From positions 1 through 33,635 of the forward strand of contig JAGAPT010000002.1 of the NCBI GenBank assembly GCA_017623115.1: a stretch of 33,635 nucleotides of DNA, read 5' to 3'. The translations under genes were made by a program, and so were the position numbers. Under the pieces are notes generated by a model. The model was not told where the DNA came from, ran no database searches, and saw only the letters and a program-made list of their open reading frames with translations. Source of the DNA: Alistipes sp. (lineage in GTDB: Bacteria > Bacteroidota > Bacteroidia > Bacteroidales > Rikenellaceae). Below, in pieces: positions 644 through 33,635 of the stretch (the first letter of the stretch is position 1; every line of letters begins with the position of its first letter).

Positions 644-688
644 TTGAGAGCAAAGAGCAGGGCGGAAGGGTGAGTAATTGAGAATGCT

Positions 689-755
689 GGGAATAATGGG
701 AATACAGGGCGTAGCTCCCAAAATTCCCAAAACTCCCAAGATGCCCAGAATTCCC
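689..755. repeat. 9-nt-period GGG/CCC inverted array, copy 1
   Basis: GGG triplets start at 689, 698 and 707, and CCC triplets start at 717, 726, 735, 744 and 753. Both sets are spaced at exactly 9 nt with six variable bases between. The two arms are imperfectly complementary, so a long hairpin or slipped pairing is possible. Read on the minus strand, the CCC arm becomes five GGG tracts with 6-nt loops, following straight on from the terminator T-tract through TTTTTGTTGGGAATT. The same arrangement recurs at 30795-30950. Its function is unknown. Confidence 0.85.
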
Positions 756-26770: not shown

Positions 26771-26778
26771 CAAAGATA
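26771..26778 (-). promoter_or_regulatory. glyS operon -7 element
   Basis: The minus strand reads TATCTTTG. Just upstream of it is a tandem near-copy (TTTTTCGTATC twice). The nearest TTTG is 25 nt upstream, longer than standard, so the -33 box is uncertain. The rest of the gap to 26870 holds nothing recognisable. Confidence 0.5.
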
Positions 26779-26870
26779 CGAAAAAGATACGAAAAAGTGA
26801 GGGCAAAAGCAAGTTTCCTTGCATTTTGCCGAGCAGGAGTATCTAAGACGAAGTCAAAAGTACCAAAAAA

Positions 26871-27492: not shown

Positions 27493-28002
27493 CTATAGGT
27501 CGTGGTCGTTTTTCACCACGCGCTTGCCGACAGCACCCGGCAGATTCTCGTTGATGTACAACTCGACACCGTAATCGACGCAGAAGAAGTAGTATTTTCT
27601 TTCCATAAACTCACCGTCGCAGGGGGTCAACTTCTTCATCGTACCCTTCATATCCACATAATAGGTGCTGCCATCGTAGTAGAGCGGGTAATTGCCCGCT
27701 ACGCGACCGGTCTTGTAGTAAAGATTGATATTCTTGACAAACTTTTTCTCGCCGTTCGATGCCGGAGCGGCACTTGCCTGCGAAGGCTTTTGTGGTGCAG
27801 TCTGCTTTGCCTGGGTCGGCTGAGCCTTCTGCGACTGGGGCTTCTCCTTTTTCGTTGTCGAGGGGTTGAATAGGTTGTGCTCGGCCTCTTTCTTTACCTC
27901 TTTCTTTACCTCCTTGCCAAGTTTCTGCATGAAACTCTGCGCCGGAGCATCTGCGATGTTCAACGCAAGCATGGCTACTGCCAGCATCATCAGTTTTTTC
28001 AT
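27493..28002 (-). CDS. Exported hypothetical protein with Lys/Gln/Pro-rich linker
   Basis: No family recognised. The 169 residues begin with a signal peptide (about 1-22, ending near DAPAQS), followed by a Lys/Glu-rich helical stretch (KLGKEVKKEVKKEAE). A low-complexity linker rich in Lys, Gln, Pro and Ala spans about residues 45-85. A compact C-terminal region of about 80 residues is rich in Tyr (INLYYKTGRVAGNYPLYYDGSTYYVDM...RKYYFFCVDYGVELYI), probably a small beta-rich domain. It contains two Cys (in TPCDGEF and FFCVDYG). A -7 element, TACCTTTG, lies 57 nt upstream. The gene lies between the two 104-bp repeats and is the only intact gene there. Confidence 0.8.
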   Translation of the reverse strand: MKKLMMLAVAMLALNIADAPAQSFMQKLGKEVKKEVKKEAEHNLFNPSTTKKEKPQSQKAQPTQAKQTAPQKPSQASAAPASNGEKKFVKNINLYYKTGRVAGNYPLYYDGSTYYVDMKGTMKKLTPCDGEFMERKYYFFCVDYGVELYINENLPGAVGKRVVKNDHDL

Positions 28003-29921: not shown

Positions 29922-30016
29922 GATTAAGGTAAGATTGGGGATTCAAGTTGTCAACAGGCCAACTGCTGCCTGTTGCTTGCCGCAAACTAATTACTGAAAA
30001 CTGATAACTGATAACT
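29922..30016. other. rimM upstream region with hairpin and small tandem repeat
   Basis: An 8-bp inverted repeat, CAACAGGC/GCCTGTTG (29952-29959 and 29968-29975), is followed by a short tandem ACTGAAA/ACTGATA/ACTGATA tract (about 29993-30016). No good TAnnTTTG is present; the closest on the minus strand is TTAGTTTG. Together with the following terminator the whole rpsP-rimM gap is 175 nt. Confidence 0.5.
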
Positions 30017-30056
30017 AAAAAAGGGGTGTCAGACAGAATCTGCCCAAACACCCCTT
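30017..30056 (-). terminator. rpsP terminator
   Basis: A 9-bp stem AAGGGGTGT/ACACCCCTT has arms at 30021-30029 and 30048-30056 with an 18-nt loop that can partly pair internally. On the minus strand it is followed by a T-tract ending at 30017. It lies 41 nt past the rpsP stop. Confidence 0.82.
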
Positions 30057-30096: not shown

Positions 30097-30633
30097 CTAC
30101 TCCTCCGAAGCAGCCTCTTCAGCAGCCTCCTCCGAAGCGGCCTCAGCGGCAGCCTCAGCAGCGGCAGCCTCAGCAGCAGCCTTCTTCTCGGCAATAGCCT
30201 TAGCGCGCTCCTCGTTTACCTTGGCCTCAGCAGCCAGGCGAGCCTTCTCGGCCGACTTAGCGTCCGATGCGAGCTTGTTGGTCTTTGCCTCGATCTTACC
30301 CGACTTAGCCTCAGCCCACTTGTTGAAACGAGCCTCAGCCTCAGCCTCGGTGAAGGCACCTTTGGCTACACCACCCAGCAGGTGCTTCTTATAGAGCACA
30401 CCCTTGTAGGAGAGGATAGCACGGCAGGTGTCCGTAGGTTGTGCGCCTTTGAGTAACCAACCCAGAGCTTGCTCGAAGTTCAGGTCGATTGTAGCAGGAT
30501 TCGTGTTGGGGTTGTAGGTACCCAACTTCTCGATGAATTTACCATCACGTGGCGCTCTGCTATCTGCGGCAACGATGTGATAGAAGGCATAACCCTTCTT
30601 ACCGTGACGTGCCAAACGAATTTTAACAGCCAT
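30097..30633 (-). CDS. rpsP: 30S ribosomal protein bS16 with Ala/Glu-rich tail
   Basis: Structural protein of the small ribosomal subunit. The S16 core is residues 1 to about 85 ([42 protein letters not shown], then [22 protein letters not shown]). The remaining 90 or so residues form a charged, probably helical tail that ends in a low-complexity Ala/Glu run (about 150-178). Long tails of this type are common in Bacteroidota S16 but not in E. coli (82 residues). It has its own promoter element and terminator. rimM lies downstream, an order shared by many bacteria. Confidence 0.97.
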
Positions 30634-30696
30634 AATGCTTATAAAATTTTGTTAAAGGTTAATAAAAACGCTCAGCCTTTCGGCCTATTTAGCGCG

Positions 30697-30704
30697 CAAA
30701 TATA
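30697..30704 (-). promoter_or_regulatory. rpsP -7 element
   Basis: The minus strand reads TATATTTG, matching TAnnTTTG, and predicts a leader of about 60 nt. The leader contains a small hairpin, GGCC-GAAA-GGCT, with a GNRA-type loop near 30673-30686. No TTTG box was found at 19-21 nt. Confidence 0.55.
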
Positions 30705-30794
30705 CGAAGAAGATTTGAAAAAGAAAAATTTTGCGAAAAAATCTGTTGGAAATCAGTTGCAGAGGAGGGGGCTTGGGGTGGGAGAGGAGTTTTT

Positions 30795-30950
30795 GGGAGA
30801 ATTGGGAGAATTGGGAATTTTGAGAGTTTTGAGAGTTTTGGGAGTTTTGAGAAGTCGCACCAACCTGCTAACTCTCCCGATCCGCCTAATCTTCCCAGTC
30901 CTCCCAGTCCTCCCAGTTCTCCCGGATCTCCCAGTTCTCCCAAAATTCCC
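30795..30950. repeat. 9-nt-period GGG/CCC inverted array, copy 2
   Basis: The left arm has GGG at 30795, 30804, 30813 and 30840, with GAG at 30822, 30831 and 30849, all in one 9-nt register. The right arm has CCC at 30876, 30894, 30903, 30912, 30921, 30930, 30939 and 30948, with CCT at 30885, again at exactly 9 nt. About 24 nt separate the arms. On the minus strand the right arm begins just after the terminator T-tract of the surface protein gene with TTTTTGTTGGGAATTTTGGG, almost the same junction as copy 1. Eight in-register GGG tracts with 6-nt loops could also form G-quadruplexes. Confidence 0.88.
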
Positions 30951-30952
30951 AA

Positions 30953-30983
30953 CAAAAAGAGGCCACCCCGAAGGGTAGCCTCT
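30953..30983 (-). terminator. Surface protein gene terminator
   Basis: A hairpin has outer arms AGAGGC (30958-30963) and GCCTCT (30978-30983), inner ACCC/GGGT pairing with one mismatch, and a CGAA loop. On the minus strand it is followed by TTTTTG. It lies 22 nt past the stop at 31006. Confidence 0.8.
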
Positions 30984-31005
30984 AAAATATGGTCGTAGTA
31001 TCCGA

Positions 31006-33635
31006 TTAGTAAACCTCTACATTGTCAATTACTACATTCAGACGGCTCGTCGGCAACGAGTTTTTGTTACCCCACAGCGTCGAACCGGTATTCAGACCCT
31101 TGTTCGTGATGTCAAAGCCGTTTACGGTGCAACCTGTAGCGACAATCTCCTTCTTGTCGGTTGTCCAGTCCGAACCCACCTCAATGGCAGCTTTGTTGTT
31201 GACATCGTCGTAATCGTTGGCGTCATTGAAGATACATCCGGCTACCTTCAGTGTCGTGTTGGTGTTACCATACAGCAAGATAGCTTTACCGCTCGTGTTG
31301 AATACGCAATCCGTAAACTCTGCTGTCGGAGCACCCCATGTCCAAATGTTGTACGAGTCACCCGATACGTTGAACGTGCACTCGTTAAACTTGCTGTCGC
31401 CATAGAGCGTGAAGGTGTTGTTGATGATGCACTTGTTGTAGGTCGCATTCAAACCTGCATAGCCCGTATAGGTAGTGCCCGGCGTGGTAATCGTAATGTT
31501 GTTGAAGGTTACCGTGCAACCACGGAAACTATAATCACAACCCTCATACGAACCATCGTCCTGTGTCTCCACAATTACATCGGCTGCATTGCTACCCGAA
31601 ATGGTAAAGGTGCTGCCACTGCTTACATCGGGCAAGATATAGGTGCCAGCGGTCAATTCAACCTCCTTGGCACCATTTGTCAGGGCCGAAGCCAAAGCGG
31701 TATCCGACGAAGCCTTGCACTTGCCATTGACAATCTGTCCCGCCTCTTTGGCGATAAAAACCTCTACGAAGTTAGCAGCCTCGGGAGCCTCGGGGTTATT
31801 CGTGTTCACGATGCTGGCACCACTCGAATATGTGTTCGAAGCGTCACCCAGCTCAACGCCATAATACATAGCCTTACCGGTCGAACCAAAGTTGATGAAC
31901 TTGCAGTTCGTCAGCGTCATCTTATCACCGGTCTCGCCCAAGAACTTCACAGCATAACGGTAGAAGTTGTCGAAGGTGGTATTTGTGATGTTCGTTTCGA
32001 ATACGCCGACATTGCCATTGCGACCATTTACTTGAATCGGACGTTGGCCATTGGCCTTGAAGTAGCAATCCTCGATGTTGAGGGTTACATTGGTGAAACC
32101 ACCCGAGTTGGTCGTACTCGTGATGCCATTATAAACCTGATCGAAGGTGACATTTTTGAAAGTATAGGTAGCATCTCCACCTTGAATATAGAACGTGGCA
32201 CCATTCCACCACGAGTTCGAGTGGATGTTGGCGGGAGCGGTCAACGAACCCTTGGGAGCACCGGTCAGCGTTACGCCCTCAATTTCAACCTTTACATTGC
32301 TATTCTGTGCCGAGAAGGTACCCTTGATGATGGCACCACCCTCACCTACGATACGAACGTCGTTGGCGGGAAGCACGATGTTACCCTCGTCATACTCTCC
32401 ATCCTCGATAATGATATAGGTAGCACCTGCAGCCAAAGCATCATTCAGCGACTCGCCATTCTTGACCAAATAGTAGTTTGCCAACGGAATTTCGTTCAGC
32501 GCACCGCCCGATACCGTTACGGTGTTGGCGCCGGTAATCGTACCGGTCGTGCTGTCATAGGTTGCAGCAGCCCACTCAATCGAACGATCGCCACGTCGAG
32601 CAGCATACAAACCATCGATGGTCGTATCCTTGATGGTGTTGGCACCTGTGAAGTTCACCGTACCGACAACCTTACCTGCCATACCGCAGACAAAGCCCGA
32701 CTCGTTGTCTACCGAGTAGTTGGTCAGATAGCTGTTCTCTACCGAGCAGTCGGCGATGTTCACCGTCGTGCCGCTGGCAACCAGACCAACAAATGCAGCC
32801 ACCGACTGAACCCCCTTGATCTTGGCATCCTTTACGGTTACGCCATTCAGGTTGAGCGTTGCGCTATTCTGGAAGTCGCCAAAGAGTACGGCAGCATAAC
32901 CGTAGTCGGGGAAGTAGGAGTCGATAACAGCACCGGCAATGGTCAGATTCTTAATCGTGATGTTGGCATTTGCGCTTACCGTCGGGTTGAACAGACCTAC
33001 CGAGTAGTTGCCTGTCTGCAGCGGAATCATGTTCGACATCGTGTAACCCTGACCATCGAACTCGCCGTTGCCAAAGGCTACTGCCTTAATCTCATGGTTG
33101 TTGAAGTTGATCGACGAGGTGAGCTTCAGGTTGTTGCCACCTACACCGTTCTTTGCCAACCAAGCCCAGTGAGCAGGCGACGAAATCTCATAGTAGCCAT
33201 TGACCAAGGCGGGCTTAATCGTCTCAACGCCATCCCAAGCCTCGGCAATCGTGTAGTCGGGCTCATCAAACGTCTCGTCAATCTCGATGACAAACTTACC
33301 GGGATCGGTCAGGAGCGAACCCATGATGTTCGTGCGGTGGTTGCGCTCGAAGGTGACACCTGCAAAGGTCGGTACCGAGTACTGCTTCACCTCGTTAGCC
33401 GTGCAGAAGGTGATGTCTACATCGTAAGCATCGGTCGGCATTGCCGGCAGGATGTAATCCATAGCGACATACTTGTAGGCCGTACCCTTGATCGTAATCG
33501 TCTCGTCAGCACCCGTCATCGGAGCAGCGCAAGCAAAGGTTACAGGAGTCTCGGTACCTGCGGGCATACCATAGTCGCCCGTGCCGTCAGCCTTCGAGTA
33601 GGCCTCGCCACCGAAGAAGTTAATCTGATCGTAGC
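31006..33635 (-). CDS. Large fimbrillin-like / beta-helix surface protein, 5' end outside the window
   Basis: The frame is open to the window edge, so the start is missing; at least 875 residues are present. The first 110 or so resemble the end of a Bacteroidota fimbrillin-like (Mfa2/DUF6562-type) domain, ending in the typical FERNHRTNIMGSLLTDPGKFVIEIDETF. The remainder looks like right-handed beta-helix sequence rich in Asn, Thr, Gly and short N-x-T-F/I strands, in at least three blocks: HWAWLAKNG...FDGQGYTMSNM, SLNDALAAGATYIIIEDGEYDEG, and ALASALTNGAKEVELTAGTYILPD. A run of Cys-x-Phe/Ile/Val sites near the C-terminus suggests a stacked ladder. There is no recognisable C-terminal sorting domain; the protein ends in NVEVY. 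It is probably a cell-surface or fimbria-associated protein; ligand and role are unknown. Confidence 0.8.
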   Translation of the reverse strand, partial: YDQINFFGGEAYSKADGTGDYGMPAGTETPVTFACAAPMTGADETITIKGTAYKYVAMDYILPAMPTDAYDVDITFCTANEVKQYSVPTFAGVTFERNHRTNIMGSLLTDPGKFVIEIDETFDEPDYTIAEAWDGVETIKPALVNGYYEISSPAHWAWLAKNGVGGNNLKLTSSINFNNHEIKAVAFGNGEFDGQGYTMSNMIPLQTGNYSVGLFNPTVSANANITIKNLTIAGAVIDSYFPDYGYAAVLFGDFQNSATLNLNGVTVKDAKIKGVQSVAAFVGLVASGTTVNIADCSVENSYLTNYSVDNESGFVCGMAGKVVGTVNFTGANTIKDTTIDGLYAARRGDRSIEWAAATYDSTTGTITGANTVTVSGGALNEIPLANYYLVKNGESLNDALAAGATYIIIEDGEYDEGNIVLPANDVRIVGEGGAIIKGTFSAQNSNVKVEIEGVTLTGAPKGSLTAPANIHSNSWWNGATFYIQGGDATYTFKNVTFDQVYNGITSTTNSGGFTNVTLNIEDCYFKANGQRPIQVNGRNGNVGVFETNITNTTFDNFYRYAVKFLGETGDKMTLTNCKFINFGSTGKAMYYGVELGDASNTYSSGASIVNTNNPEAPEAANFVEVFIAKEAGQIVNGKCKASSDTALASALTNGAKEVELTAGTYILPDVSSGSTFTISGSNAADVIVETQDDGSYEGCDYSFRGCTVTFNNITITTPGTTYTGYAGLNATYNKCIINNTFTLYGDSKFNECTFNVSGDSYNIWTWGAPTAEFTDCVFNTSGKAILLYGNTNTTLKVAGCIFNDANDYDDVNNKAAIEVGSDWTTDKKEIVATGCTVNGFDITNKGLNTGSTLWGNKNSLPTSRLNVVIDNVEVY

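Follow-up and report, generated by a model that had tools for sequence, protein, structure and literature searches.

The closest known kind of repeat to the arrays described here is the heptamer quadruplex repeat of Xanthomonas (GGGNATC) and Nostoc (GGGGA(C/T)T), which is found genome-wide and mostly between genes in arrays of 2–26 units, with four units preferred and with lengths that vary among close relatives (PMC4692102). In Xanthomonas, 70 and 75 convergent pairs of such arrays are reported and regarded as potential stem-loops (PMC4692102), and a modulation of transcription or replication by quadruplexes has been proposed for the repeats of both genera. Among Bacteroidetes, direct repeats of the heptamer TAACTGA are recorded for some members, as they are for Beggiatoaceae and Cyanobacteria, often just before start codons (PMC4679880), and Porphyromonas gingivalis carries the dispersed intergenic tandem repeats of the minisatellite-MITE BrickBuilt (PMC4596501). 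In the literature consulted on Alistipes repeats, minisatellites or G-quadruplexes and on heptameric or quadruplex repeats of Bacteroidetes, no description of the present nonamer family was found.

The stretch of Alistipes DNA analysed here (the window, 33,635 nt) is contig C21 of a 2.19-Mb genome in 60 contigs, labelled G000. By its rpsP product, the nearest named relatives are metagenome genomes that carry the labels Alistipes or Rikenellaceae. Between an uncharacterised ORF and rpsP the window holds a pair of opposed arrays of 9-nt units. This pair belongs to a genome-wide family of nonamer minisatellites between genes, which probably changes by unit-wise slippage and has spread partly as a passenger.

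The paired array upstream of rpsP

The element sits between the terminator-like hairpin of the upstream gene and a promoter-like box of rpsP. The upstream gene, an uncharacterised ORF of 853 aa at 31006..33567 (minus strand), has a weak match to DUF6562 that stays below the cut-off and no Pfam family above it; its intrinsic-terminator-like hairpin was placed by a terminator scan at 30958..30983 (minus strand), with the T tract on the 30957 side. The array itself lacks the hairpin with a direct T run that characterises an intrinsic terminator, the scan giving this adjoining hairpin instead. The gene rpsP for ribosomal protein bS16 (Pfam Ribosomal_S16) occupies 30097..30633 on the minus strand, and 71 nt ahead of its ATG stands a TATATTTG box (30697..30704, minus strand) that we take, by the Bacteroidetes consensus TAnnTTTG, to be the candidate −7 box of its promoter. 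If this assignment is correct, the element would be transcribed by read-through alone.

Read on the plus strand, the element starts with a G-arm (30795..30851) of seven 9-nt units, four with GGG (starting at 30795, 30804, 30813 and 30840) and three with GAG (30822, 30831 and 30849), passes through a 24-nt centre (30852..30875, strand unassigned) and ends with a C-arm (30876..30950) of nine 9-nt units, in which a CCC at 30876 and the only CCT at 30885 are followed by seven CCC starting from 30894 to 30948, giving eight CCC in all. These features were read directly, and the period of 9 in both arms was also returned by Tandem Repeats Finder. The 9-nt register is fixed. It exceeds chance, the best register in 30701–31000 collecting 8 CCC and 5 GGG and none of 2000 dinucleotide shuffles of this stretch reaching these values (maxima 5 and 4). 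The unit counts, the centre and the register proposed in the first-pass annotation were thus exact to the base, and the minus-strand reading frame that it mentioned exists mechanically, as an ORF of 88 aa at 30689–30955. Adjoining the G-arm is a G-rich stretch (30764..30794, plus strand), at the start of which, 30764, the window's top 25-nt G4Hunter value begins.

Another copy of the paired arrays (copy 1) lies at 680..755 (plus strand), between ssb and the dCMP deaminase gene. It had been counted as 3 + 5 units; the five C units are there, together with four G units (one GAG, three GGG), the figure of three holding for GGG alone. Both copies were also thought to share a terminator junction in a constant orientation. 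They do have AATTCCCAACAAAAAG in common, its junction part CAACAAAAA occurs within the window at these two places only, and the C-arm is turned toward the terminator in both; the settings of the hairpins differ, copy 1 having convergent genes on either side and a hairpin preceded by A and followed by T, and the hairpin of copy 2, the element upstream of rpsP, having been called a terminator solely for the minus strand. A special link to terminators did not hold up. In the window and 180,611 bases of array-selected sequence taken together, CAACAAAAA has 12 sites, 6 of which lie at most 60 nt from an arm. A terminator-like site lies at most 80 nt away from 13 of the 49 arms found in the genome (see below), for which reason terminator association was rejected as a trait of the array family.

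Several other repeats are present in the same window. The rpsP–rimM spacer carries a short 7-nt array (29984–30018) with AACTGAT/TAACTGA on its plus strand, which is the heptamer of Beggiatoaceae, Cyanobacteria and some Bacteroidetes, and Tandem Repeats Finder returned perfect short arrays of an 11-nt unit, AAAGATACGAA, at 26772–26797 and of a 12-nt unit, CCTCTTTCTTTA, at 27885–27912 (the latter inside an ORF), as well as a 27-nt repeat at 30100–30182 that lies in the part of rpsP coding for the long C-terminal tail of bS16. Rfam gave no match at gathering score anywhere in the window, and a known RNA family was rejected on this result.

A dispersed family of nonamer arrays

The idea that the element exists in two copies had to be abandoned, as the TCCCAAAAY nonamer was found at 46 sites of the genome among the matches listed (clustered at 200 bp). 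The array family is real and well delimited: a search of G000 for TCCCAAAAYTCCCAAAAYTCCC that allowed at most 3 mismatches gave 68 + 69 matches, against none for the reversed control. From these 137 matches, 100 places entered the site clustering along with those of another nonamer search, and the sites were retrieved as 36 stretches, in which, together with the window, a script found 49 arms. The family is dispersed over the genome and nearly absent from called genes, none of the 49 arms (1 of 50 under a looser arm rule) lying inside a gene called by a simple, uncurated codon model. Arm length runs from 3 to 12 units, three being the minimum for detection, and four units are commonest (19 of 49 arms). 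Exact TCCCAAAAY arrays were also seen in 21 viral contigs (L292–L312), apparently of one virus group, with one right flank common to 20 of the 21.

The proposal that arms expand and contract in whole units was supported by this range of lengths and by the likeness of neighbouring units, as adjacent units of an arm have 3.75 of 5 spacer letters in common and 2000 reshuffles among arms gave a mean of 3.48 and a maximum of 3.69. In paired elements, the similarity of units within an arm exceeds that between the two arms (3.63 against 2.62 in G000, 4.32 against 3.64 in the related genome G046 and 4.14 against 3.33 in others). Each arm behaves as a separate tandem array and, since the pairing of a G-arm is no stronger with the C-arm of its element than with a foreign one, the arms would appear to enlarge separately.

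This last comparison bears on the hairpin that the element might form. With a similar unit running in opposite directions in the two arms, the element is predicted to fold into a long hairpin in any of many registers, and the minus strand of the element was calculated to fold at −73.7 kcal/mol (z −4.25), or at −95.8 kcal/mol (z −5.0) when the terminator is included; the z-scores were −3.0 for the whole spacer and −2.1 for copy 1, where 4 of 200 shuffles folded equally well. The minimum-energy fold makes up 2.5% of the ensemble and foreign C-arms pair as well as the element's own, in agreement with the earlier remark that many alternative hairpins could form. When the C-arms were ranked by their pairing with each G-arm, the own C-arm had a mean rank of 5.5 of 8 in G000 (expected 4.5), 3.5 of 4 in G046 (expected 2.5) and 2 of 3 in the other genomes (expected 2), which gives no sign of compensation within elements in any of these sets. 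These ranks led to the rejection of two ideas, that an exact hairpin is under selection and that one arm was recently copied from the other by fold-back. Template switching, which is reportedly able to create hairpins, is likewise not supported by the arm-pairing test as a recent force here.

The order of the arms is constant: all 15 strict opposed pairs (8 in G000, 4 in G046, 3 in other genomes and 0 in G055) have the G-arm first, a strict pair having at least 3 units per arm and a gap of at most 80 nt at array-selected loci, and some of the 15 being related copies and not independent events. In a looser list, a C-arm is followed by a G-arm at most 80 nt away in one case, at L068, where the two arms belong to neighbouring G-first elements.

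Single arms have a bias relative to genes in G000, where, between co-directional genes, 21 arms have the C-rich strand as sense and 2 have the G-rich one; 7 further arms lie between divergent and none between convergent genes. The corresponding co-directional counts were 4 versus 3 in G046, 1 versus 3 in G055 and 1 versus 1 at ten other loci; being absent from G046 and G055, the bias is not a genus-wide rule, and a start-codon placement rule for the whole genus was rejected. Within the G000 stretches and the window, the inner flank is related to that of another arm in 30 of the 49 arms and the outer flank in 8, and the bias may come from common descent of the flanks, judging by these sequence similarities.

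The search was extended to other species, each represented by one genome. A generic four-unit 9-nt pattern, with one mismatch allowed, was matched in 32 of 61 genomes of the same genus, the reversed control being sizeable in some of them (e.g., G066, G067, G074 and G043). The unit itself differs between genomes: among the matches listed it is TCCCTAAAY in G046, G044, G059, G015 and others, and TCCCCATAT in G055. In the order as a whole, 16 of 295 genomes, G000 among them, had exact matches to the generic pattern, and some control matches were obtained as well. The loci L212 and L215 of G055 carry long arrays of a second 9-nt unit, GTGAGCGAT, and L320 and places in G199 belong to another family of the order with 9-nt units such as TCCCATAAY, in which two opposed pairs, among the matches listed, are G-first by coordinates. 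Upstream of rpsP, the relatives listed have other sequence in place of the element, so that its gain and loss are undatable.

Explanations of the arrays

Under the reading favoured at the outset, arms would gain and lose whole units by slippage during replication or by unequal exchange, the family would spread in part by accompanying other intergenic repeats as their passenger, and spacers, being free of translation, would tolerate the arrays. A quadruplex could form on the G-rich strand, and the family may have no function at all.

The hypothesis that the arrays are selected as quadruplexes, with at least four in-register G tracts folding on the G-rich DNA or RNA and modulating transcription or replication, is unlikely, and it is nevertheless the alternative that survives best. 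G3+N1-7 patterns occur just twice in the window, as the minus strands of the two C-arms (30894–30950 in the element), although a G4Hunter value of at least 1.2 is reached by 233 of 33,610 stretches of 25 nt, 12 of which fall inside the element. At least 4 intact tracts in a row are kept by 24 of the 49 arms, whereas label shuffles average 16.4 such arms and 0.08% of them reach 24, and the frequency of four-unit arms recalls the preference for four units in Xanthomonas (PMC4692102). However, homogenised neighbouring units would also give runs of intact tracts, and GAG stands in three of the seven G-arm units. Selection for quadruplexes would be expected to protect all three G of a tract, but the middle one is not specially protected. 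In G000 (120 units with good units on both sides), T1, C2, A5 and A6 of the unit are kept at 0.88–0.96 and C4 at 0.91, and the middle C of the tract at 0.79, positions 7–9 being also lower than T1, C2, A5 and A6; the middle C is kept at 0.76 in G046 (107 units), 0.82 in ten TCCCTAAAY-scored loci from other genomes (65 units) and 0.81 in G055 (26 units), below T1 and C2 in all four sets (0.92–1.00 for T1 and C2 in the last three, where C4 is kept at 0.83, 0.75 and 0.96, respectively).

It is also doubtful, and slightly more so, that what the spacers conserve is a structure, namely a purine-first inverted pair of short-unit arrays whose letters are replaced between species. In the valS–rnhA spacer, G000 and G066 have paired 9-nt arrays with different units, G043 has paired 9-nt arrays with a third unit and G050 has an inverted pair of 7- and 14-nt repeats; paired arrays were absent from G008, G020 and G024, the first two having a plain inverted repeat and G024 an inverted repeat with a single 7-nt array beside it. 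This set consists of six genomes plus G066, picked for showing arrays, and leaves out further valS-like-tail loci, those of G060, G006, G023 and G076 among them; at many of the 30 rnhA loci, the upstream gene was wrong or missing in the output of the automatic spacer finder. The spacer 3′ of the deaminase gene has 9-nt arrays in G000 and paired 7-nt arrays in G050 and G043 (L255 and L256), which flank a terminator-like hairpin and fold with z −12.7 and −16.9, respectively, the neighbouring gene being ssb in G050 and another gene in G043; a tandem array is absent from this spacer in G020, where ssb is adjacent. All twelve spacers tested folded better than their shuffles, at z −2.9 or below. Yet 4 of the 11 window spacers longer than 50 nt (genes taken by hand from the ORF list) carry some tandem array, and with a base rate this high the recurrence in two orthologous spacers, and with it the notion of conserved array slots, is suggestive only. 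By eye, spacers of near relatives at L076, L077 and L233 hold inverted arrays of a period of ~10 nt (CTTAAGG- or CTAAAGG-like) that are purine-first. If they were selected, spacer arrays would amount to a sequence-free slip-register hairpin, set by order and periodicity and not by letters.

From its position between the terminator and the promoter-like box of rpsP, the element could possibly serve as a fail-safe barrier to read-through transcription. The specific version in which the C-rich, G-poor arm and tail load Rho and stop read-through ahead of the rpsP promoter is improbable, in spite of this placement and of a composition that suits it. Rut sites are described as richer in C than in G across some 78 nt, with C or YC at regular spacing (PMC6407284, PMC9160355), and the element has such an excess with a spacing provided by the 9-nt register: on the minus strand of the window, the excess of C over G peaks in the 78 nt of 30767..30844 (47% C, 1% G; rank 1 of 33,558 positions), and the corresponding maximum of the plus strand is also inside the element. 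Rut sites are, however, described as unstructured (PMC6407284), whereas in the predicted fold the C-arm pairs with the G-arm, which is transcribed earlier, and the G-first order would set a Rho site behind its own lock.

A little less credible still is a mobile non-autonomous element, MITE- or REP-like, of which the array would be the end. The inner flanks common to 30 of 49 arms and the mostly unique outer ones point in this direction, as does an 88-bp intergenic module with its own hairpin (L232–L241, in tandem in L236) that lies beside many arms and is present in 24 copies in G000, in 4 diverged copies in G008, one of which has a stem pair changed on both sides, and in none of the other 59 genomes. 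But the module also occurs without an array and many arms occur without the module, and the Y1 transposase (PF01797), positive in 5 of 14 control genomes, turned up in none of the 61, on which account a REP/RAYT element was rejected. For a MITE, the flanks showed relatedness, and no orthologous site devoid of the array came to light. Templated synthesis by a telomerase-like reverse transcriptase, which would account for a single dominant unit at many dispersed sites of each genome, can practically be dismissed, as RVT_1, positive in 20 of 61 genomes, is absent from G000 and from the array-rich G017, G059 and G066, with one each in G046 and G055, which are array-rich too.

The nonamer minisatellite that changes by slippage and travels partly as a passenger is retained as the more probable reading, with the reservation that a purely neutral origin does not explain the 15 of 15 G-first pairs, the surplus of arms that keep intact tracts in a row (24 of 49 versus 16.4), the 21 versus 2 strand bias in G000 or the paired arrays of other units in the matching spacers of relatives. 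If the arrays do block read-through, they would represent a fast-evolving and nearly sequence-independent insulator; if they do not, they would be a natural record of unit-wise slippage.

Comparison with described repeat families

Like the heptamers of Xanthomonas and Nostoc, the nonamers are G-tract tandem arrays that are dispersed and chiefly intergenic (46 sites among the matches listed; 0 of 49 arms genic), and the convergent pairs of Xanthomonas are taken here to have the same order as the G-first pairs. The unit of G000 differs in having 9 nt, TCCCAAAAY on the C strand, and not the 7 nt of GGGNATC or GGGGAYT, and, unlike the heptamers, it changes between species of one genus while the period and the G-first order stay. 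For the Xanthomonas/Nostoc arrangement, with the G-rich strand antisense within 50 bp before an ORF, the counts are biased in G000 (21 versus 2) and not in G046 (4 versus 3) or G055 (1 versus 3), and the comparison of quadruplexes is, for the arrays of G000, one of sequence patterns.

The TAACTGA heptamers resemble the nonamers as intergenic arrays of short units, of a type that occurs in Bacteroidetes; they differ by one fixed heptamer, no G tracts and arrays that are mostly unpaired (PMC4679880). BrickBuilt is similar in that intergenic tandem repeats are scattered over a Bacteroidales genome, and is distinguished by a 23-nt unit and a single array with a leader and a tail that have inverted-repeat ends (PMC4596501). 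With the arrays of Alistipes, a nonamer case found across one genus joins the small number of intergenic G-tract repeat families on record, and it becomes testable why such arrays, seemingly of one polarity, arise in distant phyla.
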